The translations under genes were made by a program, and so were the position numbers. Positions 1 to 64,000 of a DNA stretch of 64,000 nucleotides are shown here, piece after piece. Under the pieces are notes generated by a model. The model searched no databases and was not told where the DNA came from. It saw only the letters and a list, made by a program, of their open reading frames with translations. Each line of letters starts with the position of its first letter. Position 1 is the stretch's first letter. Source of the DNA: an endosymbiont 'TC1' of Trimyema compressum (lineage in GTDB: Bacteria > Bacillota > TC1); the NCBI RefSeq assembly GCF_001584725.1, contig NZ_CP014606.1:186001-250000 (forward strand), written 5' to 3'.

Positions 1-64
1 GGCCATCAGCAATAATTCTAATATGATTGCAATTTTCACATTTTTTTGAAGATATTAATATCAT
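1..64 (-). CDS. Start of a short unidentified gene with a CxxC pair (partial)
   Basis: A reading frame enters from the window edge and starts at an ATG with the purine-rich stretch AAAGGAA directly before it. The first 21 residues include a Cys-x-x-Cys pair (KKCENCNH), which suggests a metal or redox site. The rest lies outside the window, so no family can be assigned. It could also be chance. Confidence 0.3.
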   Translation of the reverse strand, partial: MILISSKKCENCNHIRIIADG

Positions 65-123
65 TTCCTTTCATCAATAATAAATATAGTTAGGGGTATT
101 ATTATTTTTTATGACAATGCTTT

Positions 124-426
124 TTATAGGTTTCCCCATATTTCCATGGCTTTCAATACAGGCTTTAGACTTTTACCTGTATCTGTTAATGTATATTCTA
201 CTCTAGGTGGAACTTCTGCGTATACTTTTCTTGTAAGTAATCCATTTATTTCCATAGTTCTTAAATTTGATGTTAAAACTTTTTGTGTTATTTTACCAAC
301 AGCTCTTTGAAGCTGGGAAAAACGCATAGTACCATGTAAAAGTTCTCTAATAATCAGAGCTTTCCAAGAATCTCCCGTTAATTGTAAAGTCATTTCAACT
401 GGACAGTTTGGATATTCTTTTGTCAT
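124..426 (-). CDS. HxlR-family winged-helix transcriptional regulator
   Basis: The 100-residue protein has the HxlR layout: an N-terminal CPVEMTLQLTGDSWKALIIRELL segment, the recognition region RFSQLQRAVGKITQKVLTSNLR and the wing RKVYAEVPPRVEYTLT. Many HxlR proteins respond to reactive electrophiles or redox change and act on a divergent oxidoreductase gene. Here a pyridoxamine-oxidase-like gene is divergent. The frame stops just after IWGNL, while a neighbouring frame continues with YKKHCHKK and stops near 102. This suggests a one-base insertion that removed only the last few residues. The DNA-binding part is complete, so it may still work. A strong inverted repeat upstream is its likely operator. 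Confidence 0.85.
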   Translation of the reverse strand: MTKEYPNCPVEMTLQLTGDSWKALIIRELLHGTMRFSQLQRAVGKITQKVLTSNLRTMEINGLLTRKVYAEVPPRVEYTLTDTGKSLKPVLKAMEIWGNL

Positions 427-446
427 AGTAAAACCTCCTTGCTATA

Positions 447-474
447 GCTATAGTATCTTTAGGGATACTATAGC
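447..474. promoter_or_regulatory. Perfect inverted repeat, likely HxlR operator
   Basis: Arms GCTATAGTATC and GATACTATAGC (11 bp each, six-base spacer) lie between the divergent HxlR gene and the oxidase-like gene, about 20 bases upstream of the HxlR start. The position and symmetry fit a dimeric winged-helix regulator. The assignment is by position only. Confidence 0.65.
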
Positions 475-576
475 ACTTTTTAGTGCCTTCTTTACAATTG
501 GTCTATATAGAAGTATTATAAGTCTATCAGCAATTTATTGCAAATAAATGAAATTAATATAATGAAGGTTTTAATA

Positions 577-980
577 ATGTTTGATTATGGAAAGTTTTTC
601 GATGAGCATCCTAATGGTGTTTTAGCGACGTTTGATGAAGGGAAAATTAAAACAAGAATATTTCAATACCTTTTTACTGATAATAATAGAATCTATTTTT
701 TTACCAATGAGAATAAGCCTGTTTATAAACAGTTAGTAAAAAAATCTGAGGTTTCTTTTTGTTCCCACCATGAAGGGTATTCTCCTGTTACATCAGTAAG
801 AGGGAAAGCCATTTTTATTGATGATTTGAATTTAAAAAAAGAATATTTGGACAAAAATCCTAATATTAAGGCTATTTAAAATCTGCTGATAATCCTGAAC
901 TAAAATTATTTTATATTGATATTGAAGAGGTAGAAACATTCAGTTATGAAGAAGGTCCTAAAAAATTCCAAATAAATTAA
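577..980 (+). pseudogene. Pyridoxamine 5'-phosphate oxidase-like flavin-binding protein, frameshifted
   Basis: The frame from the ATG at 577 gives MFDYGKFFDEHPNGVLATF, typical of the small FMN-binding split-barrel (pyridoxamine oxidase-like) family. It includes the strand TRIFQYLFTDNNRIYFFTNENKPVYKQL and the motif SPVTSVRGKA. Translation ends at ...NIKAI near 876. A shifted frame continues with SADNPELKLFYIDIEEVETFSYEEGPKKFQIN up to 980, giving the usual length of about 130 residues. One single-base indel near 875 therefore separates two otherwise good halves. Such genes are often controlled by a divergent HxlR regulator, as here. The substrate is unknown. Confidence 0.75.
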
Positions 981-991
981 TTAAGATGATT

Positions 992-3648: not shown

Positions 3649-5350
3649 ATGTTACATGCAGATATGATATTTGTGAATGGAAAAGTTGTGACTGTAGATA
3701 AGCATTTCAGTTTTAAAAAAGCAATTGCAATTAAAGATGGTTGGATAATAAATGTAGGCGAGAAATAGTGACATTAAACCTTTTATTGGACCTGGAACTC
3801 AGGTAATTGACTTAGCAGGTAAAATGATTTTACCTGGGGCCCATGATGCTCATATGCATGGGATTTGGTATGGGGTTTCAAAACCACCAATTGCTTTGGA
3901 TATTAGTTACTCTAATGTAAAATCTATAGCTGACATTAAGGAAATGGTTTATGAAAAAAGAAAAACAGCGCCTAAAGGAACCTGGATTAAAGAAGTAGGT
4001 TTTACTGTAGGTCATTTGTTAGAGTGTAAAGATGATCCAAGTCGTGTGCCACGAAAAACGGACTTTGATGATATTAGCCCAGATCATCCTATTGCATTAT
4101 ATGATTTTAGTTTGCATACATTAGTTGTAAACAGTAAAGCATTAGAAGTATGTGATGTTAATAGACATACTGAAAATCCAGCAGGTGGAGAAATTGAACG
4201 GGATGGTAATGGAGATCCAACTGGTGTTTTCAGAGAGTTTGAAGCTCAAGGGGTTATTATGAAAAAATTTCCTAGGTTGACAGATAAAGAGCTTAAGCTT
4301 GCAATTCAATAAACTCAAAAAGAATTAAATAAAAATGGAATAACAAGTTATAATGATTCTGCTCTCGGGCCAGGAGGTGACCTTACATTTGGAGGTGCCT
4401 TAGGCCAGAGGGCGATTTCTGTTTATGGGGGAAATGGCTGAAAAAAAGAAATAACAGCTAGAGTATCCGTTGGACTTTTAATGGGGGATTATGATGTGTT
4501 AAATTATGATGATGTAGTTAAAGGTTTTGAAACTATTAAATTTCCTAAGATTACAGATGAAAACTGGATGAATATTCCTATGTTGAAAATATTTGCAGAT
4601 GGTATTCCTGTGGGCTATACCGCATGGCTTTTGGAAGACTATGCCAATAGACCAGGATTTAGATGAAGTTCTTGTTTGCCGGGAGAAACAGATGAAGCTC
4701 AAGAACAAGAGCTCCATAAAATTATTCTCTATGCCCATAAAAAAGGCTATCAAGTGGGGATTCATGCAACCGGTAATCGCTCTATTGATGTTTCATTAGA
4801 TGGTTTTATTAAAGATATTGAAACTTATCCAGGGCCATCAAAAAGACACTATGTTATTCATGGTGATATGATTACCAATGCTTGGGCTAGAAAAGCCATT
4901 CCCTATGATGTTGGTTTAACTTTAGAACCAGAAGTTGGGACATTAATATATGAGGCAACAACACCCTTTATTGGCAAGAAAGCCAGTCGCATTTATGGCG
5001 TGAAAGAGCTTTTAGATTGTGGTCTTTGGATTTCTGGCGGTTCTGATTGTCCTATTACTTATCCTAACTGGCGAAAAGGTTTGGAGGCAGCTGTAACGAG
5101 ACGTTCTGCCACAACGGGTAATAAACATTGTCCTGAACTAGGGGTTAGTGTAGCAGAAGGTATTAAAGTGTATACTTATGGAGGGGCTTATCAAGAACGA
5201 TTTGAAAAAGTTATAGGTTCAATTAAAATTAATAAAGTTGCAGATTTTCAAGTCCTAGAGAAAGATTTATTTTCAGTGGAGCCAGAAGCATTAGGTTCTG
5301 TAGATGTTGTTATGACAGTTACTGGTGGAAAAATAGTTTATGAAAAATAA
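3649..5350 (+). pseudogene. Metal-dependent amidohydrolase (YtcJ-like), broken
   Basis: The start at 3649 follows GGAGGG. The order of motifs matches the amidohydrolase superfamily: the N-terminal beta-sandwich strand ADMIFVNGKVVTVD, the metal site GAHDAHMHGIW (HxH), a later histidine in YVIHGDMITN and the C-terminal Asp in ISGGSDCPITYPNW. The C-terminal strand KVADFQVLEKDLFSVEP closes the composite domain. Lesions are a frame change near 3765, a TAA at about 4310 and further indels near 4435 and 4665. Members of this subgroup hydrolyse N-acyl or amide bonds, but the substrate cannot be read from sequence. An MFS transporter gene follows after 14 bases. Confidence 0.88.
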
Positions 5351-6204: not shown

Positions 6205-6259
6205 TAGAATTAATATATATTAAATAAAAAAAATTGAGGAAATAAAGGGAGGTTTAGTT

Positions 6260-7663
6260 ATGGGTAACAAAGAAGTTGTTTATCCTTATATACCTAATTC
6301 AGTACCAGAAATTAAGGCTGAGATGTTAAAGGCAGTGGGCGCTAAAGACGAAATGGAACTCTATGAGGAAATTCCAGAAAATCTAAAATTAAAAAGGGCT
6401 TTGAATTTACCGGAACCTATTTTAGATGAATATTCAATAAAGTGTCATGTGGAAAACATTTTGGCAAAAAAATAAGAACTGTAAAGAGTATATTAATTTT
6501 CTAGGTGCTGGATGCTGCCAGTATTTTGTACCTGCTGTTGTTGATGAAATATTAGGCAGAGGAGAGTTCTTAACCTGTTATGGCGCTGAAACATGGGCTG
6601 ATCATGGTAAGTATCAAGCTTTTTTGAGTACTGTAGTCAGATTTCTGAGTTAGTAGATATGGATGTTATGAGTGTGCCTCTTTACGATGGTTATCAGGCC
6701 ATGGCTACCAAGCCTATGTATGGCTAATCGCTTAAATGGTCGCAAAAAAATATTGATTCCAAGTACTTTGAGTGTCGATGCAAAGTCACTGATAACAAAT
6801 TATACAGGATCTGCTCATGATGCTAATGTTTTAGATATTGTTGAAGTGAATTGTAATGAGAAAACAGGGGGGAATGGATTTAGAGGATTTAGAGAAAAAA
6901 CTGACTGCTGATGTTTCAGCTGTTTTAATTGAGAACCCCTCCTATTTAGGTTTTGTGGAAACTAATAGTAAGGCAATAGGTGAAATGGCTAAAAATGCAG
7001 GTGCAGAATTTATTGTTAGTGTAGATCCTATTTCACTAGGGGTTATTGAGGCTCCAGGACAATATGGAGCAACGATGGCTATTGGTGATTTCCAGTCATT
7101 AGGAATGCATATGGCTGCTGGAGGCTGTTGTGGCGGTTTCATAGCAACACCAGATGAAATGAAGTATATGATGGAATTTAAAGATATTATGAATGGGGTG
7201 GTAGAAACTACAGTAGGAAGAGAGGTTGGTTGGGTTCCAGTTTTAGTGGAACGACTTCATTATGCTGTCCGAGAAAAAGGCAAAGAATTTAACAGGGACA
7301 GGTACTATTTATGGTCAATTGGAGTAGGTGTTTATTTAACATTAATGGGCCCTCAGGGTATGGCTGAAGTGGGACCAGACTATTATGCAAAATGCTCAGT
7401 ATGCTGCCAAGAAAATTAATGATATTAGAGGGGTTCAATTAAAATTTGAAACACCTTTTTTCAAAGAGTTTGTGGTGGATTTTAAGGACTCTAAGATGAC
7501 GGTGAAGGCTATTAACAAAAAGCTTTTAGATAAAGGTATTTTTGAAGGTTCGGATTTGGAAAAAGAAGGCCTTCCAGATTGTGATCTTTACTGTGTGACT
7601 GAGATTCATACAAAAGATAAAATTGATGAATTAGTAGATGCCTTAAAGGCTATAGTGGACTAA
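6260..7663 (+). pseudogene. gcvPA: Glycine dehydrogenase (decarboxylating) subunit 1-like, frameshifted
   Basis: Sequence such as YPYIPNSVPEIKAEMLKAVGAKDEMELYEEIPENLKLKRALNLPEP, LGAGCCQYFVPAVVDEI and AGGCCGGFIATPDEMKYMMEF matches subunit 1 of the two-gene P protein. That enzyme is PLP-dependent and decarboxylates glycine in the glycine cleavage system. The gene is cut by frame changes near 6460, 6650, 6715, a G tract at 6867-6872 (six G where the frame needs five) and one near 7390. The sister subunit gene follows after 14 bases. No gcvT, gcvH or lpd gene is present, and the neighbours are catabolic enzymes. The pair may have been recruited for another amino acid substrate, which is an inference. 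Confidence 0.88.
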
Positions 7664-7677: not shown

Positions 7678-9236
7678 ATGAGAAGAGATTATATGTCATA
7701 TTTGAGGAAATTTCATGAAGCTAAGTGGGATGAAGAATTTATTTTTGAATTAAGTGTTCCAGGGCAACGAGGCGTTTTAGTACCTGAAGCAAGTGAGGGT
7801 ATTAAAAAAGCAGTAGGAGATGGTATCAGCATTTTACCTTCTAGTTTAAGACGTAAAGAGCCTCCTAAATTACCCGAGGTTCATCAGATGAGAGTTAATA
7901 GACATTTTATGCGTTTATCCCAAGAAGTTTTAGGAGCCGATATTGTACCTGGTATTAGTCAAGCGACTTGCACTATGAAGTATAGTCCTAAAGCGCAGGA
8001 ACATCTCATGAGTAGAGATCCTAATATGACAGAAATTCATCCTTTGTAACCAGAGGAAACTCTCCAAGGATTATTTGAAATTTACCATCAGACTGAGTCC
8101 TTTTGCAAGGAAATTTCCGGTATGGATGCTTTTTCCTTTCAGCCAGGAGGTGGGGCTCATGCAACCTTTGCAGCAGCGGTTATTATTAGGGAATACTTTA
8201 AGGAAAAAGGTGACTTTAAAAGAGGTGAAGTCATTACTACTATTTTTACTCATCCTTGTGACGTTGCCACACCGGCTGTTGCTGGTTTTAAAATTATTAC
8301 ACTAATGCCTGATGAAAATGGTTACCCTGATTTAGAAGCTTTTAAAGCAGCTATTTCTGATAAAACTGCAGCTATTTATATTACCAATCCTGAAGATACA
8401 GGAATTTTTAATCCAAGGATTAAAGAGCATGTGGATATTGCTCATGAACATGGTGCAATTTGTTATTATGATAAAGCCAATGTTAATGGGGTAATGGGTG
8501 TATCTCGAGCAAAAGAAGCAGGTTTGATATGATTCACTATAATCTTCATAAAACATTTTCTTCGCCCCATGGTGGTATGGGACCTGGCTGTGGTGCATTA
8601 GGGGTGTTAGAATATTTAGAAAAATATTTGCCGAGTCCTAGAGTAGCTTATGATGGCGAAAAGCATTCTCTTATTACTAAAGATGGCAGTATTGGTAAAG
8701 TGCGTTCTTTTATTGGCAACGCTTCTATTGTTGTTAGAGCCTATATGTGGATTATGCAGTTGGGACCAGCTGGTATTAAAGAAGCAGCTGTTATTTCTGT
8801 ATTAAATAATCAATATATGATGAAGCAAATAGAGAAAATTCCAGGTGTAACTATTTGGTATGCTGAGGGTAAACGCAGAATGGAACAGGTTCGCTATAGT
8901 TGGCAAAAACTTAAGGAAGATACAGGAGTTGGTACAGAAGATGTAACTAGAAGGCTTATTGATTTTGGTTATGAGCATTATTGGATGTCCCATCATCCTT
9001 GGGTTGTACCAGAGCCATTTTCTTTAGAACCTTGTGAATCTTATAGTAAGGATGATATTGATGAATTTTGTACAGTTTTGAGACAGATTTCTAAAGAAGC
9101 TTATGAAAATCCAGAGTTTGTTAAAAATGCTCCCTACAATGCTCCGATTCATAATATTGAAAATCCTCATGTAGATGATTATGAAAAAAATTGCTACTAC
9201 TTGGAGACAATGGGTGAAAAGAAAGATGCGATTTAA
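7678..9236 (+). pseudogene. gcvPB: Glycine dehydrogenase (decarboxylating) subunit 2-like, nonsense and frameshift
   Basis: Subunit 2 of the two-gene P protein carries the PLP lysine, visible here in NLHKTFSSPHGGMGPGCGALG. It also has the family segments FHEAKWDEEFIFELSVPGQRG and DAFSFQPGGGAHATFAAAVII. TAA at 8047-8049 sits where HPFQPEE is expected (HPL-stop-PEETLQGLFE), best explained by CAA to TAA. A frame change near 8525 then separates KEAGLI from MIHYNLHK. The rest to 9236 is uninterrupted. The ribosome site contains a seven-G run (7664-7670), which is unusual and may itself be an expanded G tract. The stop codon directly abuts the start of the next gene. Confidence 0.9.
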
Positions 9237-9961
9237 ATGAAATAAATTGGTTTAATTGTTAACCCTTATGCAGGGATTGGTGGCCCCAGTGGTTTAAAAG
9301 GCAGTGATGGAGCAGAAATTAGAGATTTGGCTTTTAAAAGAGGAGCTGTACAAAAGCTGCTAGCCGAGTGGTGGATACTTTGACTTACGTGAAAAAGCAT
9401 TATAATGGGGATATTAAATTTATTACTTACACCCTTATGACATGGGGGCTAATGAAGTGCTTGCAGTTGGATATAAGCCTGTTATTAAAGGGGTTTTAGA
9501 GGAGGGGGGTCAATTACCTCCTCCTCGGATACAAAAAGGGCTGCAGAATTGATTTTAGCTGAAAATATTGATTTGCTTCTTTTTGCTGGAGGGGATGATA
9601 TGGCTCGAGATATACGAAAGGCTATAGGCGATGCTCCTATTCCCGTTATATGGAAGAAATATACTATATTTTATTGGACCAGGAAGCACTACTAAGGAAA
9701 TACCTAATTTATTAAATTTTAAAGGCACTCTTTTAGGTGTTGATGCTATTTTAAATAGGAAACTAATTGGCGCAGACTTAAGTAGTGGGGATATTCAACG
9801 TTTAATTAAAGAGAAGGGTGAAAAAGGCATTAAAATTATAGTGACTGTTATTGGTAGTCAAGGTTATTTATTTGGTCGAGGCAACCAGCAGTTTACACCG
9901 GATATATTAGAGCAAGTAGGTAAGGAAAATATTATTGTAGTAGCTACAAAAGATAAATTAC

Positions 9962-11226
9962 TGGAAGAATGTCAATAGAGTAGATAGAAAAAGTGAAATT
10001 AAGTTTTAATAGAAGTGAAAAAATAGTCTTCTTTGGAATTAGGAGAAAGAATGTTATTAGCAGAGTGGGGACGTATAGGGGGTTGTAGAAGCCCTCAATG
10101 TGTTCAAAGCAGGAAAGCTTAATTTGAGCAAAGGAAGAAAAAGACCTACGAAGAATTTCTTCTTTTTTCATATATTTAAAAAGGACTCAACGACAGCATT
10201 GTCCCAAGGATGAGAAAGCTTAGAAAAAGATTGAATGATACCAAAAGAATCAAGGAGCTTTCTAAAGATAAAAGAAGTATATTAGGAACCTCTGTCAGAA
10301 TGAAAAATAAGAGAAGTAGAAGGTTTTTGAGAATAAAAGGCTTTGATAAAAGTATCCTTAACAAGAGAAGTATCAATTTTAAGAGAGAGCTTCCAAGCAA
10401 TAATTTTACGAGAAAATAAATCCATAATAACACAGAGATAAGCAAAAGAGGCATTTAAATTAATATAGGTAATGTCACTAGCCCAGACTTGATTGGGCTG
10501 AGGAACATTAAAATTTTGATTTAGGTAGTTAGGGCAATCAAAATTGGGAATAGACCTCGGATGAATAAACCGAAGTTTGATAGTAGGCATTTTAGGAAGA
10601 TTCATGTCAGTCATCAGGCGGCTCGCTCTACCAATACTGATGTTGATGCCATAGTCATAGGAAAGAAGAGCCTTAATCTTAGATGGGCCAATACGTCTCT
10701 TAGTAAGATGACAAATCTCCGAGAATAAGCTGACGGAGTTTTTAATTCTCAATAGTTCTAGGAGAAAGTTTTTCCGAAAAGTATTTGTAATAGGAGCTGC
10801 GGTTCACTTTAAGGACATGACAAAGAAAAGAGATAGCGTGCTGAAAACGAAGGGTATGAACAGCCATTAATCTTTGTCTGAGTGAGGCGTGAATATGGCA
10901 ATTGCTTTTTTTAAAATGATATTTTCCTCCTAGAGTCGAGCATTACGCTTTTGAAGATCCTTAATCTGCTTAGCGGTTAGAATAGTATCATCATCAATTC
11001 TAACCTGAGAATAAAGTTTAATCCACTTGTGTAAAGCAGACATGGAGACACCATATTCTTTAGAAAGTTGGGATTGAGTTTTACCGTTTTGGTGTAAATT
11101 AACAATACTTTTTTTAAATTCTTCATCGTATTTCTTGTAATTATTCATAATTTTATCCTTTCTTATGTGTCTACTTATTTAAAACATGTTTCACTTTTTC
11201 CTGTCTACTTTTTTAGTATATGTCCA
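9962..11226 (-). mobile_element. IS3-family insertion sequence, copy 1
   Basis: This is a 1,265-bp element in minus orientation with imperfect terminal inverted repeats. One end begins TGGACATATACT and the other TGGAAGAATGTC, and both continue into a shared AAAAAGTGAAA block. Copies with the same ends and length lie at 33820-35084 and 50889-52153. It interrupts the AcoX-like gene. No target duplication is evident. Copy 1 differs from the other two by one base noticed near 10290, which turns CAA into TAA in the second transposase frame. Confidence 0.93.
9999..11148 (-). pseudogene. IS3-family transposase (OrfA plus OrfB), dead, copy 1
   Basis: OrfA (start 11148) is a 72-codon helix-turn-helix protein (KKYDEEFKKSIVNLHQNGKTQSQLSKEYGVSMSALHKWIKLY). 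It ends at a TAG where RLEEENIILKKA is expected. OrfB contains the DDE integrase core (SDITYI, HSDRG, NAVVESF) but is broken by a nonsense codon after SPRTIEN, a frame change about 20 bases later, another near the E of the DDE triad and one near GFYN. Copy 1 has an extra stop directly after HSDRGS, so it lacks even the core found in the other copies. An AAAAAAG slippery run, as used for frameshifting in this family, follows the OrfA stop. Confidence 0.9.
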
Positions 11227-11373
11227 AAAGGTTTCTCTAGTGCCAAGACCATTTATTGTGGATACAGGTAAGGAGAGAGTACTAATAAAATGTTAGAGGG
11301 CTACATAAAAGTTATTGTTGGCTTAACCGATTATACTTATTATAAAGCGAGTCAATAAAAAGGAGGAATTAAA

Positions 11374-12151
11374 ATGTTTTTCTTTAGAAGGAAAAGTAGT
11401 GATTGTTAGTGGTGCTTCACAAGGTGTAGGTTTAGCTATATCTAAGCGCTTTACTGAAGCGGGAGCAAAAGTAATAATGGCGGATATAAATGAGGATCTA
11501 GGTATTGCAGAAAGTGAAAAAATTGGTGCTGACTTTATTAAAATAGATGTGAGTAAGGAAGATGATGTTAAGTCTTTAGTAGACTATGTAATAGAAACAT
11601 ATGGTACTATTGATGCTTTAATTAATAATGCAGCTATTATTATTCCTGAAGAAGATGTGCCTGATATAGATGTGGAAACAGCTAAGAAATTATTTGATAT
11701 AAATTATTTTGGCTATTTCAGAATGATTAAGTATTGTGCACCCTATATGCCGAGTCAATCCGCTATTATTAATTTGGCTTCCAATGCTGGGGTTCAAGCA
11801 TTTCCAGGCTATGCTGCCTATAACTCATCAAAGGGCGCTATTATTTTATTAACGAGGACTGTAGCTCTTGAATTAGCAGATCGAGGCATTCGTGTTAACT
11901 CTATTTGTCCTGCTAGTATTGATACTCCTATGCTCTATCAAGAGGTTTGCGAAAATGAACTAAAATGAGTCAATATGCATGGCCTTTAGGGGGGCACAAG
12001 GCCTTGTAAAGCTGAAGAGGTTGCTGCTGCTTTGGCCCATTTTCTAGCAACAGATGATTGCTTATATATAACGGGTGAAGATATTCAAATTGATGGAGGC
12101 TATAAAGCAGGTATTGGTAGAAAAGGAATGCAAAAGTGGATTGAAGATTAG
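11374..12151 (+). pseudogene. Short-chain dehydrogenase/reductase, frameshifted
   Basis: The Rossmann start VVIVSGASQGVGLAISKRF (TGxxxGxG-type), LINNAA, NLASNAG with catalytic Ser and YAAYNSSK (YxxxK) define a classical SDR that oxidises an alcohol or reduces a ketone with NAD(P). Initiation is good (AGGAGG before ATG 11374). However, the run of T after ATG is too long: MFFFRRKSSDC is read instead of MFSLEGKVVIVSG. A second lesion near 11985 adds about seven bases between PLG and RPCKAEEVAAALAHFLATDD. The C-terminal GEDIQIDGGYKAG is conserved. It is part of the catabolic cluster, and the substrate is unknown. Confidence 0.88.
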
Positions 12152-47953: not shown

Positions 47954-48414
47954 ATGAATAAAGATAATGAGAATTATAAATCAATTGGCTTTGTTGCAGC
48001 AGAGTTTCTTGATAATGACTATACATGTTTACAGTCTGTTTTTCTGGCTTTAAAGAGTATTTTTGATGAATTAGATAAAATTGATGAAAATATTTTTTCA
48101 GGTTTTGGAGGAGGTTTCGCATGTACTGGAAATACTTGTGGAACAATAGTAGTGCAACTGCAGCGCTTTCTTTATATCTTATTAACGAGGAGGATAATAA
48201 AAATCGAAAAGAATTGTATACACAACTGCAAATCTTTTATGAAGATATCAAAGAAAAATTTGGCAGTCTGAATTGTTATGAGATTGTGGGTGTGAATTTT
48301 TTGTGTCCTCAAGATGCAAGTCGATATAAAGATGAAAAACATGAACAAGCTTGTAAACCCTTAGTATCATATATTACTAATAAAATAGCATATATAATAA
48401 AAAATGAAGTATAG
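47954..48414 (+). pseudogene. C_GCAxxG_C_C-family redox protein, frameshifted
   Basis: A small protein of the family named after its spaced Cys/Gly motif. The body reads YKSIGFVAAEFLDNDYTCLQSVFLALKS...FSGFGGGFACTGNTCGTIV, then a frame change near 48150 joins ATAALSLYLINEEDNKNRKELYTQLQIFYEDIKEKFGSLNCYEIVG...ACKPLVSYITNKIAYII. Members occur next to flavin or electron-transfer proteins in anaerobes and their function is not established. A second, also frameshifted member lies at 52984-53401. Confidence 0.8.
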
Positions 48415-52153: not shown

Positions 52154-52298
52154 TTATAAAATGGATTTAAACATCCATTCACCGGCTCAAGTTGAAATTT
52201 TTAATATGACAACAGGAAACATTTTTAAAGCAGGTGGCATAAGAGAAGATATTATTTTAAAAAGTTTCTTTAAAAATAAAAGGCAGGTGCATCTTTAA
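52154..52298 (+). pseudogene. C-terminal fragment of an unidentified protein
   Basis: An open frame joined to the IS end reads MDLNIHSPAQVEIFNMTTGNIFKAGGIREDIILKSFFKNKRQVHL and ends one base before the next gene's ATG. The spacing suggests the lost gene was in an operon with the FMN reductase. I do not recognise the family. Confidence 0.45.
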
Positions 52299-53401: not shown

Positions 53402-53456
53402 CAATGAATGTAATCCTTAATTATGTTATAATGAAAAATAAGGATTGAGGTTACTA

Positions 53457-54212
53457 ATGGAACTAGATTATTTTGAAATTGAAAAAAAAATTATTAGATT
53501 TATACAAAATACAGTAAAAACAGCCAATAGCAGAGGAGTTGTTATTGGTATTTCTGGTGGAATTGATTCTTCAGTAGTGGCAACCCTTTGTACTAAAGCC
53601 CTAGGAAAAGAAAATATACTTGGTATTGTTTTGCCTTGTGAAAGTAAACCAGAAGATGTTGAACACGGGATTTTATTGGCGGAGACTATAGGCATACCAT
53701 ATAAAGTAATTAACTTAGATGAAACATATAGTGCTTTAGTTAATGCTGTCAATCCTGCTATAGAAAAAAATGATAATCCAATGGCCTATGGGAATATTAA
53801 ATCACGTCTAAGAATGACCACTCTCTACTTTGAAAGTGCCTTGAAATGTTATTTAGTTGTTGGAACAACGAATAAAAGTGAATGGATAACAGGTTATTTT
53901 ACAAAATATGGAGATGGTGGAGCAGATTTTGAGCCAATTGGAGATTTGCTAAAGAGAGAAGTAGTTGCTTTAGGACATCATCTAGGACTACCTGAACTAT
54001 TAGTTAATCGCGTTCCTGATGCTGGCTTAATTAGTGCTCAAACAGATGAAGATGAATTCGGATTTACTTATGATGCATTGGATACATATATAGCAACAGG
54101 TAAAGGAAGTCCAGACATAATTGAGAAAATAAATAGATTATATAAAATAAATAACCATAAGAGAGAAATGCCTTCTATGCTGAATTTGGAAAGATATTTT
54201 TTTCTAAAATAA
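53457..54212 (+). CDS. nadE: NAD synthase, ammonia-dependent type
   Basis: The protein converts nicotinic acid adenine dinucleotide to NAD. The start at ATG 53457 is favoured by AGGATTGAGG upstream; a TTG four codons earlier is less likely. The PP-loop VIGISGGIDSSVVATL, GNIKSRLRMTTLYF, VGTTNKSEWITGYFTKYGDGGADF and LLKREVVALGHHLG are conserved. The length of about 251 residues corresponds to the short form without a glutaminase domain, so it should use ammonia. It begins a run of intact housekeeping genes. Confidence 0.95.
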   Translation: MELDYFEIEKKIIRFIQNTVKTANSRGVVIGISGGIDSSVVATLCTKALGKENILGIVLPCESKPEDVEHGILLAETIGIPYKVINLDETYSALVNAVNPAIEKNDNPMAYGNIKSRLRMTTLYFESALKCYLVVGTTNKSEWITGYFTKYGDGGADFEPIGDLLKREVVALGHHLGLPELLVNRVPDAGLISAQTDEDEFGFTYDALDTYIATGKGSPDIIEKINRLYKINNHKREMPSMLNLERYFFLK

Positions 54213-54226
54213 AAGGAGTGATTGTT

Positions 54227-54967
54227 GTGGCTGGCCATTCAAAGTGGGCAAACATTAAACACAAAAAAGGAAAGCAAGATGCCAAAAGAGCAAAAATATT
54301 TACTAAAATTGGTAAAGAAATTATGGTATCTGTAAAATTAGGCGGAATCGACCCAGAGGGAAACTCAAAATTGGCTTTGCAAAATGCCAGAGCAAACAAT
54401 ATGCCAAATGATAATATTAAACGCCTAATTCAAAGAGCTTCTGGGGAAGATAATAGTACCCAATATGAAGAACTGGTCTATGAAGGATATGGCATTGGGG
54501 GCGCAGCTGTTATTGTTGATGTCATGACAGATAATAGAAATAGAACCGCTGGCGAAATTAGACATATTTTTGATAAATGTGGTGGCAATTTAGGAGAAAC
54601 TGGTTCTGTAGCTTGGCTTTTTGAAAGAAAAGGTCAACTAACTATTACACTTGAAAACCAAGATGAAGATTTTTTAACATTGGAAGCTATTGAGGCAGGT
54701 GCAGAAGATGTTGTAGTTGAAGGTGATGAGTTAATTATTTTCACAGCTATGGAAGATTTTGATAAAGTTCGCAAAATATTTGAAGATAAAAATATTGCTA
54801 TTGGACAAGCAATGCTTACAAAAATTTCTGAGAATACTATTGAAATAACTGATATTGAACAGGCTAAGCAATTAATCAAAATGATGGATTTACTAGAAGA
54901 TAATGATGATGTCCAAGATACCTATAGTAATTTTGACTTTAGTGAAGAAATTATGTGGCAATTATAA
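54227..54967 (+). CDS. yebC: YebC/PmpR-family protein
   Basis: The family is highly conserved and acts as a transcriptional regulator or translation factor. The preferred start is GTG 54227 ([31 protein letters not shown]), the universally conserved N-terminus, with AAAGGAGTG five bases upstream. Other signatures are [67 protein letters not shown] and the acidic C-terminus. A five-G tract here (IGGAA) is intact, unlike those in the pseudogenes. The last base overlaps the ruvC start. Confidence 0.95.
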
Positions 54968-55455
54968 TGCGTATTCTAGGCATTGACCCTGGTACTGCAA
55001 TTTGCGGGTTTAGTATTTTAGACTATGAAGGTAATCATTTTAAACTCGTGGACTTTGGTGTGATTACCACGCCAGCTAAAATGGATTTGGAAAAAAGATT
55101 ACTTCATATTTATGATAAGACCCATGAGCTAATTACAAAGTATGAACCAGAACATATGGCTGTTGAGGATTTATTTTTTAATAATAATGCTAAGACGGCT
55201 CTCTCAGTAGGTCAGGCAAGAGGTGTAAGCCTTTTGTTAAGTGCTCAAAAGAATATGATCCTTGCTTCTTATACGCCATTGCAGGTTAAGCAAAGTGTTG
55301 TAGGGTATGGTAGGGCTGAAAAGAGACAAGTGCAAGAAATGGTTAAAATTATTCTGAAAATGGATAAGATTCCTAAGCCAGATGATGCAGCAGATGCTAT
55401 TGCGGTTGCAATTTGTCATGGCCATTCTTATAAAATTAACAGCATATATAAATAG
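54967..55455 (+). CDS. ruvC: Holliday junction resolvase RuvC
   Basis: RuvC cuts four-way DNA junctions. The start overlaps the yebC stop by one base (TAATG). Catalytic acids are in [13 protein letters not shown] (Asp), MAVEDLFF (Glu) and [16 protein letters not shown] (two Asp), in the standard order. At 162 residues it has family length. It forms the first gene of ruvC-ruvA-ruvB. Confidence 0.96.
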
Positions 55456-55470
55456 AAATGAGGAAATAAA

Positions 55471-56073
55471 GTGATTGGTTTTTTAAAGGGCAATGTATTT
55501 AAAAAGAAAGAGCAGAGTATTTTACTTGATGTAAGAGATGTAGGTTATGAAGTATTTCTGACTGTTTCTGATTTGACTCAATTAAAGGAAAATGAAAATG
55601 TTCTTCTATTTATACACTATAAGCAAAAGGAAGATGGCACATCTTTATTTGGTTTTATGTCAGAGGAAACCAAGGACGTTTTTGAAGTCTTAATTGATAT
55701 GAATGGTATTGGACCTAAAATGGGGATGGTTATTTTATCTGCAATGGACAAGGATATGCTAATAGCTTCTATTCAAAGAGAAGATGTTTTTGCATTGACT
55801 GAGATTCCGGGAGTAGGTAAAAAGACAGCTCAGAGAATGATAGTTGAGTTACAGGATAAATTAAATCACTATGTAATAGATGATACAATGGAACTGGAAA
55901 TGAAAATAGAAAAAGATAATAGAACAGCCTTAACAGATGCTGAAGAAGCATTGATATTCTTAGGTTATAGTAAAAAAGAAATTGATCAAGTGTTAAAGAA
56001 GTTATTAAAGAGAGATAAAACTTATGAAACAGATGATTTAATTAAATTAGCCTTAAAGGAGTTAGGTAAATAG
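55471..56073 (+). CDS. ruvA: Holliday junction branch-migration protein RuvA
   Basis: The junction-binding subunit. GTG start 55471 after GAGGAAAT. It has an N-terminal OB fold (MIGFLKGNVFKKKEQSILLDVRDVGYEVFLT), the two helix-hairpin-helix motifs (LIDMNGIGPKMGMVILSAM and LTEIPGVGKKTAQRMIVEL) and the C-terminal RuvB-binding domain (DAEEALIFLGYSKKEIDQVLKKLL). Directly followed by ruvB with no gap. Confidence 0.96.
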   Translation: MIGFLKGNVFKKKEQSILLDVRDVGYEVFLTVSDLTQLKENENVLLFIHYKQKEDGTSLFGFMSEETKDVFEVLIDMNGIGPKMGMVILSAMDKDMLIASIQREDVFALTEIPGVGKKTAQRMIVELQDKLNHYVIDDTMELEMKIEKDNRTALTDAEEALIFLGYSKKEIDQVLKKLLKRDKTYETDDLIKLALKELGK

Positions 56074-57075
56074 ATGGAAACAAGATTAATGGATGGAGAT
56101 TTTCTACAAGAAGATAGAGAAATTGAAGTAAGTCTTCGACCTAAAACCCTTGAAGAATATATAGGTCAAGAAAAAGTAAAGGAAAATCTTAAGGTTTTTA
56201 TTAAAGCGGCACAAAATAGAAATGAAAATTTAGATCATCTTTTACTTTATGGACCACCAGGATTAGGTAAAACCACTTTAGCTAATATAGTGGCAGGAGA
56301 AATGGGTGTTCAAATTAAGGTAACATCTGGACCAGCAATTGAAAAAGCTGGGGATTTGGCAGCTATTTTAACTAATTTACAAGAAAATGATATAATCTTT
56401 ATTGATGAGATACATCGTTTAAATAGAAGTGTAGAAGAAATTTTATATCCTGCACTAGAAGATTTTGCTCTAGATATAATTATTGGTAAAGGACCTAGTG
56501 CAAGATCAATTCGAATTGATTTACCTCGATTTACTCTTGTTGGAGCAACGACTAGAATTAGTCTTTTAAGTAATCCCTTGAGAGATCGATTTGGTGTTAT
56601 CAGTCGCTTGGAATACTATAATACTGAAGAATTAAAAGCTATCGTTGAGCATAATGGAAAGCGTTTAGGCATTGATATTGACCCTGAAGGAGCTACTGAA
56701 ATTGCCCGTCGCTCAAGAGGAACACCTCGTATATCAAATCGACTTTTAAAGAGAGTTAGAGATGTTGCTGAAGTAAAAGGCGATGGTTATATTGATAAGG
56801 CTCTAGCCATAAGAGCTCTCAATATGCTTGAGGTTGATGAGTTTGGCTTAGATGAAATTGATAGAAAAATTCTTATTTTATTAATAGAAAAATTTAGTGG
56901 TGGACCTGTTGGACTAGATACCCTTGCTGCTATGGTTGGAGAAGAAGGTTCAACAGTAGTTGATGTGTATGAACCATTTCTTCTTCAATTAGGGTTTATA
57001 AATAGAACCCCTAGAGGAAGAGTGGCTACCCATTTAGCTTATAGACGTTTAGGATATCCTATACCAGAGGAGTAG
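56074..57075 (+). CDS. ruvB: Holliday junction helicase RuvB
   Basis: Hexameric AAA+ motor for branch migration. Features are [22 protein letters not shown], Walker [19 protein letters not shown], Walker [12 protein letters not shown], sensor 1 [22 protein letters not shown], sensor 2 [24 protein letters not shown] and the winged-helix end AYRRLGY. At 333 residues it is complete. Confidence 0.97.
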
Positions 57076-57077: not shown

Positions 57078-57665
57078 ATGATTACAGGGATTATATTATC
57101 AGGTGGACAAAGTAGTCGTATGGGTAAGAATAAAAGTTTGCTACTGTATGAAGGAAAGCCTATTATTGCCTATGTGGTAGAGGCTATTCGTTCATTTGTT
57201 AAAGATGTAATGGTTATTACAAATGAACCTGAGTTCTATAGTTTTTTAGAAAATGTTACTTTTAAGGAAGATATTATAAAAGGGAAAGGGCCTATGGGTG
57301 GTATTTACACTGGTCTTCACTATGCTGAAACGGATCTTTCCTTTGTAGTTGCTTGTGATATGCCTTTTATAAAGGGTGAACTGATTCCTTTTTTGGAAAA
57401 AAGAATTGGTGATGCATGGGGATGTATACCTTTTGACGGAGAGTACTTTGAGACTCTAGCTGCTTTATACAATAAGGAACTTGAAGGTTTTTTTTATTCT
57501 TTTTTGAAAGGCGAAATAAAAAAGCTTCAATACCTACTTAAAGGACTTAATGTAGTCAGAGTAGATGATAGGATAATTTATAAGGAGTTTGGAAAACACA
57601 TTTTTTATAATATGAATACTCAAGAATCTTATGAAAAAATAAAAAGGGAAACCAGTAATGAATAG
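57078..57665 (+). CDS. mobA: Molybdenum cofactor guanylyltransferase
   Basis: MobA attaches GMP to molybdopterin. The nucleotide loop LSGGQSSRMGKNKSLLLYEGKP, GKGPMGGIYTGL and VACDMPFIKGELI define the family. At 195 residues it is full length. It is intact although the only molybdopterin or tungstopterin enzyme seen here (aldehyde oxidoreductase) is dead, so another such enzyme may remain elsewhere. The gene ends inside the next start (ATG overlap of eight bases). Confidence 0.92.
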   Translation: MITGIILSGGQSSRMGKNKSLLLYEGKPIIAYVVEAIRSFVKDVMVITNEPEFYSFLENVTFKEDIIKGKGPMGGIYTGLHYAETDLSFVVACDMPFIKGELIPFLEKRIGDAWGCIPFDGEYFETLAALYNKELEGFFYSFLKGEIKKLQYLLKGLNVVRVDDRIIYKEFGKHIFYNMNTQESYEKIKRETSNE

Positions 57666-58160: not shown

Positions 58161-58524
58161 TTGGAATTACGAGATAATCGCACGGATAGAAATATCTGTG
58201 AGGAAAGTCCTGGCTGGCACAAGCTGCGATGTGGTTTACACAAGGCGTGGAGCCTGCTTGTAGAGAAAATGCCAAGGGCAACCTTGGGGAGGGTAACCTT
58301 ACGGAGACTGAAAATATCCTACTAGGGAATGAGTAAGTCATAAAGTGCTATAGAGACGAGTCTATTTGGTAACAAATAGAGTGAGACGACGTAAACCCCA
58401 TTTTGTCAGAAACCCTCTGAGAGGGGAACCTGCTAAAGGGAATAGGAACTGAAAGCGGGTATCTGTTTTTAACAGGTAAGATAGATGATTATCCTTGACA
58501 GAATCAGGCTTATTGTAATTCCAA
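58161..58524 (+). ncRNA. rnpB: RNase P RNA (bacterial)
   Basis: The catalytic RNA that trims the 5' ends of tRNA precursors. The ends pair as TTGGAATTAC and GTAATTCCAA. The conserved core motif GAGGAAAGTCC lies at 58200-58210 and the 3' signature ACAGAA...GGCTTAT at about 58498-58512. Between them are several stems including the TGAGACGACGTAAACCC-like region near 58382. Length about 364 bases fits the family. It lies nine bases after the gerMN stop. Confidence 0.95.
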
Positions 58525-58549: not shown

Positions 58550-59114
58550 ATGGAAAAGAAAGACGTACTTGTTTTATTTGGTGGTCCGAGAAAAAGCATC
58601 TTTAGGCTATTTAGTAGATGCTTTTTTGGCGAAAAACTATGATAGTGAAATTATTTATTTAAATGATTTAAATTTTAGAGGTTGTCAGAGTCGTTTTTAT
58701 TGTAGAACCCATGAAAGCTGTGTGTTGAAAGATGATTTGACACCTATCTATAATAAAGTAGAAAAAGCGGACAAGATATTATTAGCGATGCCTGTATTTT
58801 ATGGTTCTATACCGGGATAATTAAAATTGGCTATGGATCGTATGTTTGCTTTTGCTGATATTCGCTTAAATAAGGACAATGGAAACAATTATGGCAGTAA
58901 ATTGGAAGATACGAGAAAAATTTTCTTAATTGCTACTCATGGGAATTCCATTCCTTCTGTTCTTGAATGTCTAGAGAGACCTTTTCGTTATTTAGCTGTT
59001 GAAATAAATGGAATTTATACAGGGATGTATGCTTCTCCAAAATTAGACTTTGTATCTGTTTATAATAATGAAGGTGTTATTGAAGAATTGCTGGATAAAG
59101 GGAAAGATTTTTAG
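58550..59114 (+). pseudogene. Flavodoxin/NADPH-dependent FMN reductase-like protein, frameshift and nonsense
   Basis: After ATG 58550 (MEKKDVLVLFGGPRK) the frame is lost near 58592 and resumes with ASLGYLVDAFLAKNYDSEIIYLNDLNFRGCQSRFYCRTHESCVLKDDLTPIYNKVEKADKILLAMPVFYGSIPG. Then TAA at 58818-58820, where Gln is expected (CAA to TAA), precedes LKLAMDRMFAFADIRL. The rest (IFLIATHGNSIPSVLECLERPFRYLAVEINGIY) is clean to 59114. It is related to the flavoproteins at 24631 and 52298. The single nonsense plus one indel imply recent loss. Confidence 0.85.
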
Positions 59115-59824: not shown

Positions 59825-61642
59825 ATGTGTGGCATAGTTGGTTATTTCGGTAAAAGAGAGGCTAAAGATATTTTAATGAATGGTCTTTTCCGTTTAGAAT
59901 ATAGAGGTTACGATTCAGCTGGTATCGCCTTATTTTGTGATGGTGATATTAATGTAACAAAAGCTCAAGGTCGATTAAAAGAACTTGAAATAAAATTAAA
60001 TTGTGAGAATAGAGGTTCGATTGGAATTGGTCATACAAGATGGGCTACTCATGGCAAACCATCTGATGAGAACTCTCATCCCCATATGGGCTGTGAGGGT
60101 ACTTTTTGTGTTGTTCATAATGGAATTATTGAAAATTATATGGAATTAAAAGAAGCCCTTCAAGAAAAAGGGTGTGATTTTTTATCTGAGACTGATACAG
60201 AGGTAATTCCTAATTTACTTGAAGTTTATAATACAGGTGATTTTTTAGAAACTGTACAGAAGGTAGTGTCTATGCTTGAAGGGGCTTATGCATTATGTGT
60301 TCTTTCCAAAGAATTTCCAGAAGAAATGATTGTTGTTAGAAAAGCCAGTCCTCTTGTAGTTGGAAAATGTGATGGAGAGTATTTTGTTGCATCGGATATT
60401 CCGGCTATTTTAGAGTATACAAAAGATGTATATATTCTTGAAGAAGATGAAGTGGCTCATATTAAAAATAAAACCATTGCTTTTTATAATGGTGAGGGGA
60501 ATGCTATTGATAAAGAAATAACTGAGATTACATGGGATTTAGAATCCGCTGAAAAGCAAGGTTATCCTCATTTTATGCTTAAAGAAATTCATGAACAACC
60601 AGAAGCCGTGGAAAAAACCTTAGCAGGTCGTATTAAAGATGGTACTGTGCAATTGGATTTAAATCTAACAGATGATTTTATTAAAAGTATTGATAAAGTA
60701 GCTGTCGTTGCCTGTGGTACAGCAAGTTATGCTGGACGAGTTGGCGGTAATTTTATTGAAAAATATTTGAGAATTCCAGTCGAAGCAGAATTTGCTTCGG
60801 AATTTAGATATAATGATCCTATTATTACGGATAAGACACTAGTAATAGTTGTAAGTCAGTCAGGAGAAACAGCGGATACATTGGCTGGTTTACGTGAAGC
60901 TAAATCAAAAGGGGCAAAAATTGTGGCTATCACAAATGTAGTAGGCAGTTCAATTGCTAGGGAATCAGATGAAGTGATTTATACTCAAGCTGGTCCTGAA
61001 ATTGCTGTTGCTTCAACTAAAGCTTATGTAACTCAATTAATTGCCTTATATTTATTAGTATTACAGTTAGGTAAAATTAGAGGGGCTATTGATGCTGCTT
61101 TTGAAAAAAGCTGGATTGAAGCTTTAATAAAGTTACCAGAACAAATTACAAGTATTTTAGAGCAAAGCGATATTATGGAAGTTTATGCAGCTGGTTTAAA
61201 GGACTACACCAGTGCTTTCTTTATTGGCCGTGGCGTTGATAATGTTAGCTCTCTTGAAGGCGCTTTAAAGCTTAAGGAAATATCCTATATTCATGCAGAA
61301 GCCTATGCGGCTGGAGAGTTAAAACATGGCACATTGGCATTAATTACTGATGATGTTCCTGTTATTGGTATTGCAACTCAAAAGCATTTATTAGAGAAAT
61401 CAATCAGTAATATAATTGAGGTAAAGGCTAGAGGGGCAATTACCTATGGTATTGGATTTGAAGGAGAAGGTCAATTGAGAAGAACTGTAGACCATTTTTA
61501 TCCTATTCCAGATGCTTTAGAAGACTTTGCTCCTATTCTAACAGTAGTGCCTTTGCAATTACTAGCATATTATGCATCTTTATTAAAGGGAAATGATGTT
61601 GATAAGCCTAGAAATTTAGCTAAAAGTGTAACTGTAGAATAA
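59825..61642 (+). CDS. glmS: Glutamine-fructose-6-phosphate aminotransferase (isomerizing)
   Basis: GlmS makes glucosamine 6-phosphate, the entry to peptidoglycan amino sugars. The N-terminal glutaminase has Cys2 (MCGIVGYFG), GHTRWATHG and DTEV. The two SIS sugar-isomerase domains show VACGTASYAG, VSQSGETADTLAGLREAK and GRGVDNVSSLEGALKLKEISYIHAEAYAAGELKHG. The end is the universal DKPRNLAKSVTVE. At 605 residues it is complete. Ribosome site AAAGGAGGAAG. No glmS ribozyme is recognisable in the 100 bases before it. Confidence 0.97.
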   Translation: MCGIVGYFGKREAKDILMNGLFRLEYRGYDSAGIALFCDGDINVTKAQGRLKELEIKLNCENRGSIGIGHTRWATHGKPSDENSHPHMGCEGTFCVVHNGIIENYMELKEALQEKGCDFLSETDTEVIPNLLEVYNTGDFLETVQKVVSMLEGAYALCVLSKEFPEEMIVVRKASPLVVGKCDGEYFVASDIPAILEYTKDVYILEEDEVAHIKNKTIAFYNGEGNAIDKEITEITWDLESAEKQGYPHFMLKEIHEQPEAVEKTLAGRIKDGTVQLDLNLTDDFIKSIDKVAVVACGTASYAGRVGGNFIEKYLRIPVEAEFASEFRYNDPIITDKTLVIVVSQSGETADTLAGLREAKSKGAKIVAITNVVGSSIARESDEVIYTQAGPEIAVASTKAYVTQLIALYLLVLQLGKIRGAIDAAFEKSWIEALIKLPEQITSILEQSDIMEVYAAGLKDYTSAFFIGRGVDNVSSLEGALKLKEISYIHAEAYAAGELKHGTLALITDDVPVIGIATQKHLLEKSISNIIEVKARGAITYGIGFEGEGQLRRTVDHFYPIPDALEDFAPILTVVPLQLLAYYASLLKGNDVDKPRNLAKSVTVE

Positions 61643-61689
61643 ACTTAAAACAGACACAAAATATGTACTAAATGTAGTTAAAAACATTG

Positions 61690-61962
61690 ACAAATAAAGG
61701 AAAACAGCGTAAAATGTCAAGTACAGGAGAAACGAAGACAATGTCTTTTTAGCAGAGAGTCAAGAGAGTAGATGTTTGGTGTGAAGTCTATACTTAATCA
61801 CTAAAGAGAATATCCCTTCTAGCAGATTCTCTGAAATTCAGTAGGAGAAAACGGGTGTGCCCCGTTATAGCACTAGTTATTGATAGATGCTGATTGAGTT
61901 ATAAAACAGGGTGGTAACGCGAATATCTCGCCCCTGGCGTGAAGCTGGGTGCGAGTTTTTTT
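61690..61962 (+). promoter_or_regulatory. T-box leader, isoleucine type
   Basis: A tRNA-sensing riboswitch. Stem I region 61740-61835 includes the specifier-loop context AGAGAATATCCC; the specifier codon is read as ATC (61812-61814, Ile). The T-box sequence AGGGTGGTAACGCG (61908-61921) contains the TGGT bulge that pairs with an ACCA tRNA end, expected for tRNA-Ile. The terminator (CTCGCCCC...GGGTGCGAG and T run) is at 61927-61962. It allows transcription of the ilv genes when uncharged tRNA-Ile accumulates. The structure looks intact. Confidence 0.9.
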
Positions 61963-61986
61963 ATACAATTTTAAGGAGGGAAAATC

Positions 61987-62103
61987 ATGAGCATTATTAA
62001 TAAAATAGGAAAAGTAATTTCAGTGTTTGATCATGGTTTGCTGAGTTATATTAAAGTTTTCAAGGGATTTGAAGACCACAAGGGCCTAGTCGCAAAGCTT
62101 TAA
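61987..62103 (+). pseudogene. ilvE: Stub of branched-chain aminotransferase
   Basis: A 38-codon frame with a good ribosome site (AGGAGGG) reads MSIINKIGKVISVFDHGLLSYIKVFKGFEDHKGLVAKL. The core VSVFDHGLL..VF.G matches the N-terminal signature of IlvE (VSVFDHGLLYGDGVFEGIR), with the Tyr-Gly-Asp-Gly part corrupted. Everything after it, about 250 codons, is deleted. ilvE as first gene of a T-box-controlled ilv operon would be normal, so the identification is reasonable but rests on about 20 residues. Confidence 0.6.
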
Positions 62104-62163
62104 TAAAGCATTGAATAATTGTATGAAAATAAATACGTAGAAGAATAGAAGACGAGGTGTAAC

Positions 62164-63833
62164 ATGAAAAGTGAAAAAATGAAGTCAGGAGTAGCTAAGG
62201 CTCCCCATCGCTCATTATTTAAAGCATCTGGCTTAACAGATGAAGAGATAAAAAGATCTATAATTGGTATTGTAAATTCCCAAAATGATATTGTTCCAGG
62301 ACATATTCATTTAGGTGCAATAGGTGAAGAGCCGTTAAAGCTGGGGTTCGTATGGCTGGCGGCGTGCCTTTACAATTTCATACAATTGCAGTTTGTGATG
62401 GCATAGCTATGAACCATACTGGTATGAAATATTCCCTTATAAGTAGAGAGCTTATTGCAGACACAATTGAAGTAATGGCCAGTGCTTATACCTTTGATGG
62501 ATTAGTATTTATTCCAAACTGCGATAAAGTTGTGCCAGGCATGTTAATGGCGGCTGCCAAACTGAACATCCCTTCTATTTTCATTAGTGGTGGTGCTATG
62601 TTACCAGGAAAACATAAAGGTAAAAAATAAGTTTAACAGATATGTTTGAAGCTGTTGGTTCAGTAGCAGCAGGTAAAATTGATGAATCTGAACTCTGTGA
62701 CATGGAAAATTCCGCCTGTCCTACTTGTGGTTCTTGTTCAGGGATGTTTACAGCAAATTCTATGAACTGTTTAAACAGAAGTTATTGGTATGGGATTACC
62801 AGGCAATGGTACAATACCAGCCGTTTATTCAGAGCGAATCCGTTTAGCAAAAACTGCAGGTATGAGAAATATTAGATTTAGTTGAAGAAGATGTGAAACC
62901 AAAAGATATTATGACTGAAGGGGCTTTCCATAATGCAATTGTTGCCGATATGGCTCTTGGTTGTTCAACTAACACTGTTTTACATTTACCAGCAATTGCT
63001 CATGCAGCAGGATTTGATGTTGGCTTTGAGACCCTTAATGATATTGCTCAAATTACACCTCAAATTTGTAAGTTGGCACCTGCAGGAAATCATTTTATTT
63101 CCGATTTATATGAAGCCGGTGGTATCCGAGGGGTTTTAAAATCTCTTGATAATGCTGAAGGATTGATTAGAAGAGAATGTTTAACCGTTAGTGGTAAAAC
63201 TGTTGGAGAGCAAATTGATAAAGCTTATATTTCAGATTCAGAAGTAATTCGCAGCAAAGAAAATGCTTATAGTCAAGATGGTGGATTAGCAATTCTTTGG
63301 GGTTCATTGGCTCCAGAAGGTTGTGTTGTTAAAAAAGGTGCTGTAGCTGAAGAAATGATGATTCATACTTGACCTGCTAGAGTTTTTGAATCAGAAGAGG
63401 AAACTGTAGAAGCTATTTTTAATAAAACCATAAAAGATGGGGATGTAATAGTAATTCGCTACGAAGGTCCTAAAGGAGGACCAGGTATGAGAGAAATGCT
63501 TTCACCAACAGCTGCAATTGCTGGTATGGGACAAGATAAGACTGTCGCCTTGATACAGATGGCCGTTTTTCAGGCGCTACAAGAGGAGCATCTATTGGAC
63601 ACGTTTCACCTGAGGCAGCATCTGACGGACCAATAGGTCTTGTAGAAGAAGGGGATTTAATTGAAATAAATATTCCTAAAAATTCACTTAATTTATTAGT
63701 AGAAAAATCAGTGCTAGAAGAGAGGGAGAAGCATCTTAGAAAGAAAGAAAATAATTTAGCTATTGGCTATTTAAAAAGATATGCTTCATTAGTAACTTCA
63801 GCTAATACAGGAGCGGTGTTTAAAGATGAGTAA
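62164..63833 (+). pseudogene. ilvD: Dihydroxy-acid dehydratase, heavily broken
   Basis: An iron-sulfur enzyme for valine, leucine and isoleucine synthesis. The pieces [97 protein letters not shown] and [24 protein letters not shown] are unmistakable. Lesions include frame changes near 62330, 62370, 62628, 62785, 62860 and 63550 and a TGA at 63370-63372 in the conserved HTGPARVF (GGA to TGA). The 3' part to 63833 is clean. Its stop overlaps the ilvB start. Confidence 0.93.
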
Positions 63834-64000
63834 TAAGTTATACCCGGGTGCAGATATTATTTTAAAATCACTTGAAATGGAAAAAGTTAAAATAGTTTTT
63901 GGCTATCCAGGAGGCAGTGTGTTGCCATTATATGATTCCTTATATCATAATGATAATATTAAGCATATATTAACACGTCATGAACAAGGCGCAGGTCATG
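63826..64000 (+). CDS. ilvB: Acetolactate synthase large subunit (5' part)
   Basis: The start overlaps the ilvD stop (ATGAGTAA), indicating translational coupling. The visible 58 residues [57 protein letters not shown] contain the ThDP-binding Glu in RHEQGA and the GYPGG loop. No lesion appears before the window edge, so its state downstream is unknown. Confidence 0.88.

Follow-up and report, generated by a model that had tools for sequence, protein, structure and literature searches.

Selective gene erosion in a small bacterial genome, probably sped by loss of mismatch repair

Why should one stretch of bacterial DNA carry recognisable metabolic genes full of frameshifts and in-frame stops directly beside housekeeping genes that are open from end to end? 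The question is raised by a stretch of 64,000 nucleotides (bases 186001–250000 of contig 1, hereafter the window) from a genome of 1,622,248 bases that is assembled in two contigs and is 96.9% complete. An initial annotation, made from the letters of the window, had read it as selective erosion of metabolic genes with housekeeping genes spared. We conclude that the erosion is genuine, recent and selective, of a kind already known, and that it has probably been sped by a mutator state, since mutS and mutL are both broken. Taken as a whole, we put at roughly three in four the reading that this is a small-genome bacterium in early reductive erosion, in which loss of mismatch repair and an insertion sequence (IS) quicken gene breakage.

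Open and broken loci in the window and beyond

Codon-usage segmentation of the window revealed repeated frame changes and in-frame stops, as well as long tracts lacking coding signal (e.g., 31.4–33.8 and 35.1–35.8 kb). We measured density as the longest non-overlapping stop-to-stop open reading frames (ORFs) of at least 100 aa, and compared the genome with its nearest available relatives, of which five share its family but not its genus and four share its order. The window has an ORF density of 0.60; values run from 0.53 to 0.97 (mean 0.76) across 20 further 20-kb stretches of this contig and from 0.84 to 0.97 (mean 0.92) across 20 stretches of the relative G002. The genome is therefore uneven, with certain 20-kb stretches matching the relative's density and others wrecked.

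To count lesions, 801 ORF proteins of the relatives were aligned to 464 kb (the window plus the 20 stretches) with a frameshift-tolerant aligner after masking of IS copies; loci at 45% identity or more were treated as orthologue-like, and the counts cover loci with a recognisable relative. Among 78 such loci, 49 are open (55.7 kb) and 29 are broken (24.1 kb, 74 frameshifts and 18 stops), the window contributing 9 open and 8 broken (n = 17); with no identity limit the totals become 90 open and 55 broken (n = 145). The same procedure applied to 310 kb of the relatives G001, G003, G005 and G006 returned 169 open and 5 broken loci (n = 174), these control loci having been chosen for the homologues of interest that they contain, and not at random from those genomes. 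Of the 5 broken controls, three match reference ORFs of just 102–122 aa and may be spurious, and one of our 29 broken loci (L114 10480) is equally doubtful. The pseudogene load is thus large compared to that of the relatives (29 of 78 loci vs. 5 of 174), and the erosion first described for the window reaches beyond it.

The lesions could in principle be sequencing or consensus errors of a long-read assembly. Such errors would suit an assembly in two contigs, and would also suit the lesions themselves, in which there are 104 frameshifts but 27 stops, and the frameshifts occur preferentially at homopolymers: 31 of the 104 are no more than 8 bases from a run of at least 6, a share reached in 0 of 200 permutations (7.8% expected). 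By type, the frameshifts comprise 41 of −1, 35 of +1, 18 of +2 and 10 of −2, so that single-base insertions are about as frequent as single-base deletions. The distribution of the lesions, however, does not follow an even error rate. When 92 lesions were scattered evenly over the 78 loci, 28.1 lesion-free loci were expected and at most 41 occurred in 20,000 trials, yet 49 were observed. Moreover, across 98 loci (random sample plus the targeted loci described below), 34 of 122 runs of 6 or more in broken loci have a frameshift within 14 bases, compared to 1 of 226 runs in open loci, which indicates that slippage contributes solely where selection has let go. Stops, deletions in mutS, an IS insertion in mutL with a 290-codon gap, and non-coding tracts do not resemble indel errors either, and a homology-guided frame correction, which might have spared conserved genes, would also have repaired ilvD, UbiD and mutS, all of which have close open relatives. 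Thirty copies of one IS carry identical lesions, as context-dependent errors would produce; given that the copies share their sequence context, their identity cannot exclude such errors, and we rely on the homopolymer comparison instead. We consider sequencing error very improbable as an explanation of the whole, and the initial annotation was right to set it aside: lesions cluster by locus, and homopolymer frameshifts are almost confined to broken loci.

Nor is reassignment or recoding of a stop codon a reading we would seriously entertain. Certain genes, such as lysA, do have a single in-frame stop as their only lesion, but the 27 stops in broken loci are spread evenly over the three codons (10 TAA, 9 TGA and 8 TAG), they are outnumbered by frameshifts, and open loci contain none except at their ends.

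Functions kept and functions lost

We grouped the randomly sampled loci into functional classes using our own labels, which were assigned after the status of each locus had been seen. The core class (translation, replication, recombination, cell wall, glycolysis and nucleotides) has 32 open loci and none broken, compared to 17 open and 29 broken among all others (Fisher P = 1e-9). Core informational genes are thereby kept while biosynthesis and transport are lost, with the exception of repair genes among a set of loci (mismatch repair, radC, rex and Clp) that we targeted on purpose, outside the random sample. The proposal that housekeeping is spared accordingly stands for translation, replication, cell wall, glycolysis and recombination, but fails for mutS, mutL, mutS2, radC, rex and a Clp ATPase.

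In the histidine operon (locus L128 5772–11533), hisZ, hisG, hisD, hisB and hisF are broken beside three open genes that we read as hisH, hisA and hisI. In a phosphate uptake cluster, the genes read as pstC, pstA, pstB, phoU and phoB are all broken, and a pabA/trpG gene is broken as well. Together with the broken ilvD and ilvB at the end of the window, the loss of the his genes, the pst-type cluster and pabA/trpG fits a rich niche. A selenium/purine-linked cluster (ygeY, carbamoyltransferase, ygfK and ssnA) is open.

Lysine synthesis, which had been listed among the losses, is only partly gone. The diaminopimelate dehydrogenase gene ddh (41285–42130, plus strand) is broken and shortened, and the diaminopimelate decarboxylase gene lysA (48537–49742, plus strand) carries its one in-frame stop at 48846. 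In contrast, dapF and dapL, directly upstream of the window, are open, as are genes read as asd and dapB. From this gene content, the cell seems to retain diaminopimelate for wall synthesis while abandoning free lysine. That the wall itself has been lost, an idea suggested by the broken ddh and lysA, is contradicted by the open dapF and dapL and by six open genes among seven Mur-ligase matches. The seventh Mur-ligase-family gene (contig 1:971886–972578) has five stops inside its domain.

Because the losses track function so closely, a shift of niche alone might explain them, with relaxed selection behind every loss and the mismatch repair genes mere casualties of no causal role; the accessible part of one report (PMC4494066) does describe loss of mismatch repair as frequent in reduced genomes. 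What this account leaves less well explained is that single genes hold many lesions but have few substitutions (UbiD has 12 lesions at 77% aa identity), which suggests an indel-rich mutational input. Homopolymer enrichment likewise fits mismatch repair loss, though ordinary slippage would enrich frameshifts there too. We rate a niche shift without any mutator contribution at somewhat below an even chance.

As to the niche itself, host association is plausible. The sole hint of a host comes from the window's DEAD-box helicase: among its three closest named relatives is one labelled Gsp477, a name given in the available portion of PMC11707648 to a bin from a Glyptotermes termite; loss of mismatch repair in termite symbionts is discussed there as well.

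Mismatch repair, an amplified insertion sequence and the pace of loss

The genes miaB and miaA are open, but mutS and mutL, which they flank, are both broken (L172 6636–11175, at about 1.006–1.011 Mb of contig 1). The mutS gene has 8 frameshifts, one stop and deletions. In mutL, residues 1–86 are followed from the very next base by an IS copy, after which only residues 378–568 remain, so that about 290 codons are missing. Furthermore, 8 frameshifts and 4 stops disrupt mutS2, both radC and rex are broken, and a Clp ATPase gene, presumably clpC (its NCBIfam matches fall below cut-offs), is interrupted by an IS and frameshifted. In the relatives, the MutS domain is stop-free in 40 of the 40 searched; 37 of them have an open frame of 770 aa or longer, and in all nine of the same family and order it reaches at least 840 aa. 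Frames of 299–366 aa in three distant relatives (G022, G027 and G039) may reflect contig ends or real breaks. For mutL, the three relatives checked (G001, G002 and G006) all have an open gene.

Laboratory mutators deficient in mismatch repair are expected to show frameshifts enriched at homopolymers. The genome resembles such strains in its broken mutS and mutL and in the homopolymer enrichment of its frameshifts, but differs in that the spectrum here is read from fixed lesions only. A raised mutation rate is what we would expect from the function of mismatch repair together with this enrichment.

The element within mutL belongs to the IS3 family and is represented in the window at 33821–35085 (plus strand), 9962–11232 (minus strand) and 50889–52153 (minus strand). 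A genome search gave at least 42 matches (40 of 89 candidates scored), at least 30 of them full-length or nearly so. Across 30 copies (37.9 kb) we found three variable sites, each common to 4–6 copies, and one copy without its right end; twelve relatives have 0–7 matches each, at 25–43% identity, and the element has therefore proliferated in this genome. The transposase of the copy at 33821–35085 is itself broken, with a TAG in orfA and a TAA plus three frame changes in orfB. As the copies are almost identical, all of them should carry these lesions, and 24 of the 30 have one additional stop. No target-site duplication was found flanking the IS copies, and the base that follows them on the right is without exception a purine (A in 13 and G in 17 of the 30 copies). 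An element with a dead transposase may have reached about 30 copies by movement in trans or through recombination that evened out its sequences. Another copy abuts a second, broken guaA-like gene (L119 12159–13155), whose open counterpart guaA lies at L119 848–2377. Neither the IS copies nor the broken mismatch repair genes, both relevant to mechanism, figured in the initial annotation.

In the mechanism that we favour, purifying selection still holds open the genes for translation, replication and recombination, for the cell wall, for glycolysis and for core nucleotide metabolism. Genes for the synthesis of histidine, branched-chain amino acids and free lysine, for steps of cobalamin and folate synthesis, for phosphate uptake and for several catabolic routes are meanwhile breaking, often with several lesions in one gene. 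The lineage has lost MutS and MutL and carries its roughly 30 near-identical IS copies, including the one within mutL. Loss of mismatch repair would have made single-base frameshifts and IS-linked deletions more frequent, and weakly selected genes would then have broken faster than they diverged, with a rich or host-linked niche as the most likely source of that weak selection. Which genes stay is decided by selection; how fast the others go probably depends on the IS and on the loss of mismatch repair.

A stronger version would make mutation, and not niche, the driver of the collapse. The IS insertion in mutL and the lesions in mutS would have created a mutator in which normally kept genes were lost quickly, while an IS with a dead transposase spread to about 30 sites by means of another transposase or recombination. 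We regard this as unlikely, if well short of negligible.

For loci with sister and outgroup sequence, we counted changes unique to this genome and to the sister by codon position. The ratio of first- plus second-position to third-position changes in 20 open loci is 1.09 here and 1.05 in the sister. By the same measure in broken loci (values below), the losses look recent, and prolonged relaxed evolution has left no clear mark. Given that the broken loci (35 kb) contain 27 stops, and taking an assumed share of nonsense among random changes, we infer neutral change of about 1–2% since the losses, as an order of magnitude.

Several observations weigh against our reading. In 17 broken loci the codon-position ratio is 1.15 here and 1.21 in the sister, and the lack of a clear excess of amino-acid changes, while it fits recent loss, gives no positive sign of relaxed selection; excluding gcvPA and gcvPB, for which the G002 homologues are apparently poor orthologues (32 and 40% identity), changes the ratios to 1.16 and 1.09 and leaves the conclusion the same. 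Nothing dates the loss of mismatch repair before the other losses, and more than half of the frameshifts (58 of 104) have no run of at least 5 close by, which makes slippage a partial account. Two usual marks of long reduction also seem to be lacking. G+C content is 32.3%, compared to 32.0–33.7% in G002, and thus shows no shift to A+T, and at 1.62 Mb the genome is not below those of its five family members (1.1–1.7 Mb, two of them only 76–79% complete); the four members of the sister family have 2.1–2.6 Mb.

The window in detail, and related cases

We named the broken pieces of the window by Pfam searches on read-through frames; positions below are on the plus strand unless marked. At its left end lie a broken cobQ/cobyric acid synthase-like gene (1195–2309), with its CbiA and GATase_3 domains in two frames, and an amidohydrolase family gene (3800–5341) with three in-frame stops. 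These are followed by gcvPA (6242–7654; 6 frameshifts relative to the G006 homologue), gcvPB (7699–9222; 2 frameshifts and 1 stop) and a NAD-kinase-like gene (9246–9960; 4 frameshifts and deletions), which terminates at the first IS copy. On the far side of that copy are a short-chain dehydrogenase gene (11351–12109) with two in-frame stops and an M20 peptidase gene (12308–13452) with 3 frameshifts and 1 stop. An open block comprises typA (bipA; 16490–18262, minus strand), at whose edge the aligner calls one frameshift, a GH25 lysozyme-like gene (18467–19210, minus strand), a gene for a GTP-binding protein (GTP-bdg_N/M, MMR_HSR1; 20419–21615) and the DEAD-box helicase gene (21836–23464), with a broken ZIP metal transporter gene spread over two frames in its midst (19440–20234, minus strand).

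Downstream, genes for an FMN reductase, UbiD and UbiX (24631–27185) are all broken and jointly carry 14 frameshifts and 4 stops, and the open genes of relatives match them at 63–77% aa identity. Genes broken across two frames encode an aldehyde ferredoxin oxidoreductase (AFOR_C; 36076–36996), a ferritin-like protein (42301–42694) and a C_GCAxxG_C_C redox protein (48020–48390). Abutting the third IS copy is the 3′ remnant of an MCH-like gene (52149–52289; residues 280–325 of 325). A second open block holds nadE (53445–54212), yebC (54218–54967), ruvC, ruvA and ruvB (54955–57075) and a MobA-like nucleotidyltransferase gene (57078–57665). Next come rnpB, a class B RNase P RNA with a full-length model match (58165–58517), a broken FMN-reductase-like gene (58559–59111; 1 frameshift and 1 stop) and open glmS (59825–61642). 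The window closes with ilvD (62164–63830; 5 frameshifts and 1 stop, 76% aa identity to an open relative) and the start of ilvB (63829–64000), whose continuation beyond the window end (locus L118) has 3 frameshifts.

The genes that the initial annotation had singled out as clean, namely the helicase, nadE, yebC, ruvC, ruvA, ruvB, the MobA-like gene, rnpB and glmS, are indeed all open or complete. Its figure of about forty genes with lesions was not reproduced, although the pattern is present: we show a lesion in 20 named genes, plus the three IS copies, and the window holds further broken fragments that we did not name.

Partial counterparts are described among known symbionts, in the portions of the reports available to us. 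The Coxiella-like tick endosymbiont CRt has a genome of 1.7 Mb in which pseudogenes abound and coding content is only 48.5%, and in CLEAA the loss of mutSL has been proposed as the cause of faster genome reduction (PMC4494066). Our genome is like CRt in being small and rich in pseudogenes, and like CLEAA in having lost mutSL. In the Coxiella-like pair, however, mutSL loss occurs in the already small genome and not in the pseudogene-rich one, whereas here both features meet in one genome; and CRt is without expansion of mobile elements, whereas here a single IS is present about 30 times. Genes of Sodalis are described as decaying by quick inactivation and then deletion (PMC11137140), and the nascent Sodalis of Columbicola lice resembles our case in its intact genes beside broken ones and in pathways lost piecemeal (PMC11137140). 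In contrast to the present lineage, Sodalis belongs to the Gammaproteobacteria and has a known free-living relative and known hosts, and its mutL "inactivation" is an in-frame deletion in the linker, where here an IS cuts mutL and about 290 codons are gone. In the accessible literature on mismatch repair loss, pseudogenes and insertion sequences in clostridial symbionts we found no description of this lineage, which is no proof of its absence in print.

Genome reduction is mostly observed once it is over, whereas here decay is visible in progress. The his operon is half open and half broken, and the broken genes still resemble their working relatives. The lysine pathway is cut exactly where need ends, diaminopimelate being kept for the wall while lysA and ddh are broken. 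With open relatives at hand for comparison, this genome offers a workable way to ask whether the loss of repair comes before that of other genes and hastens it.

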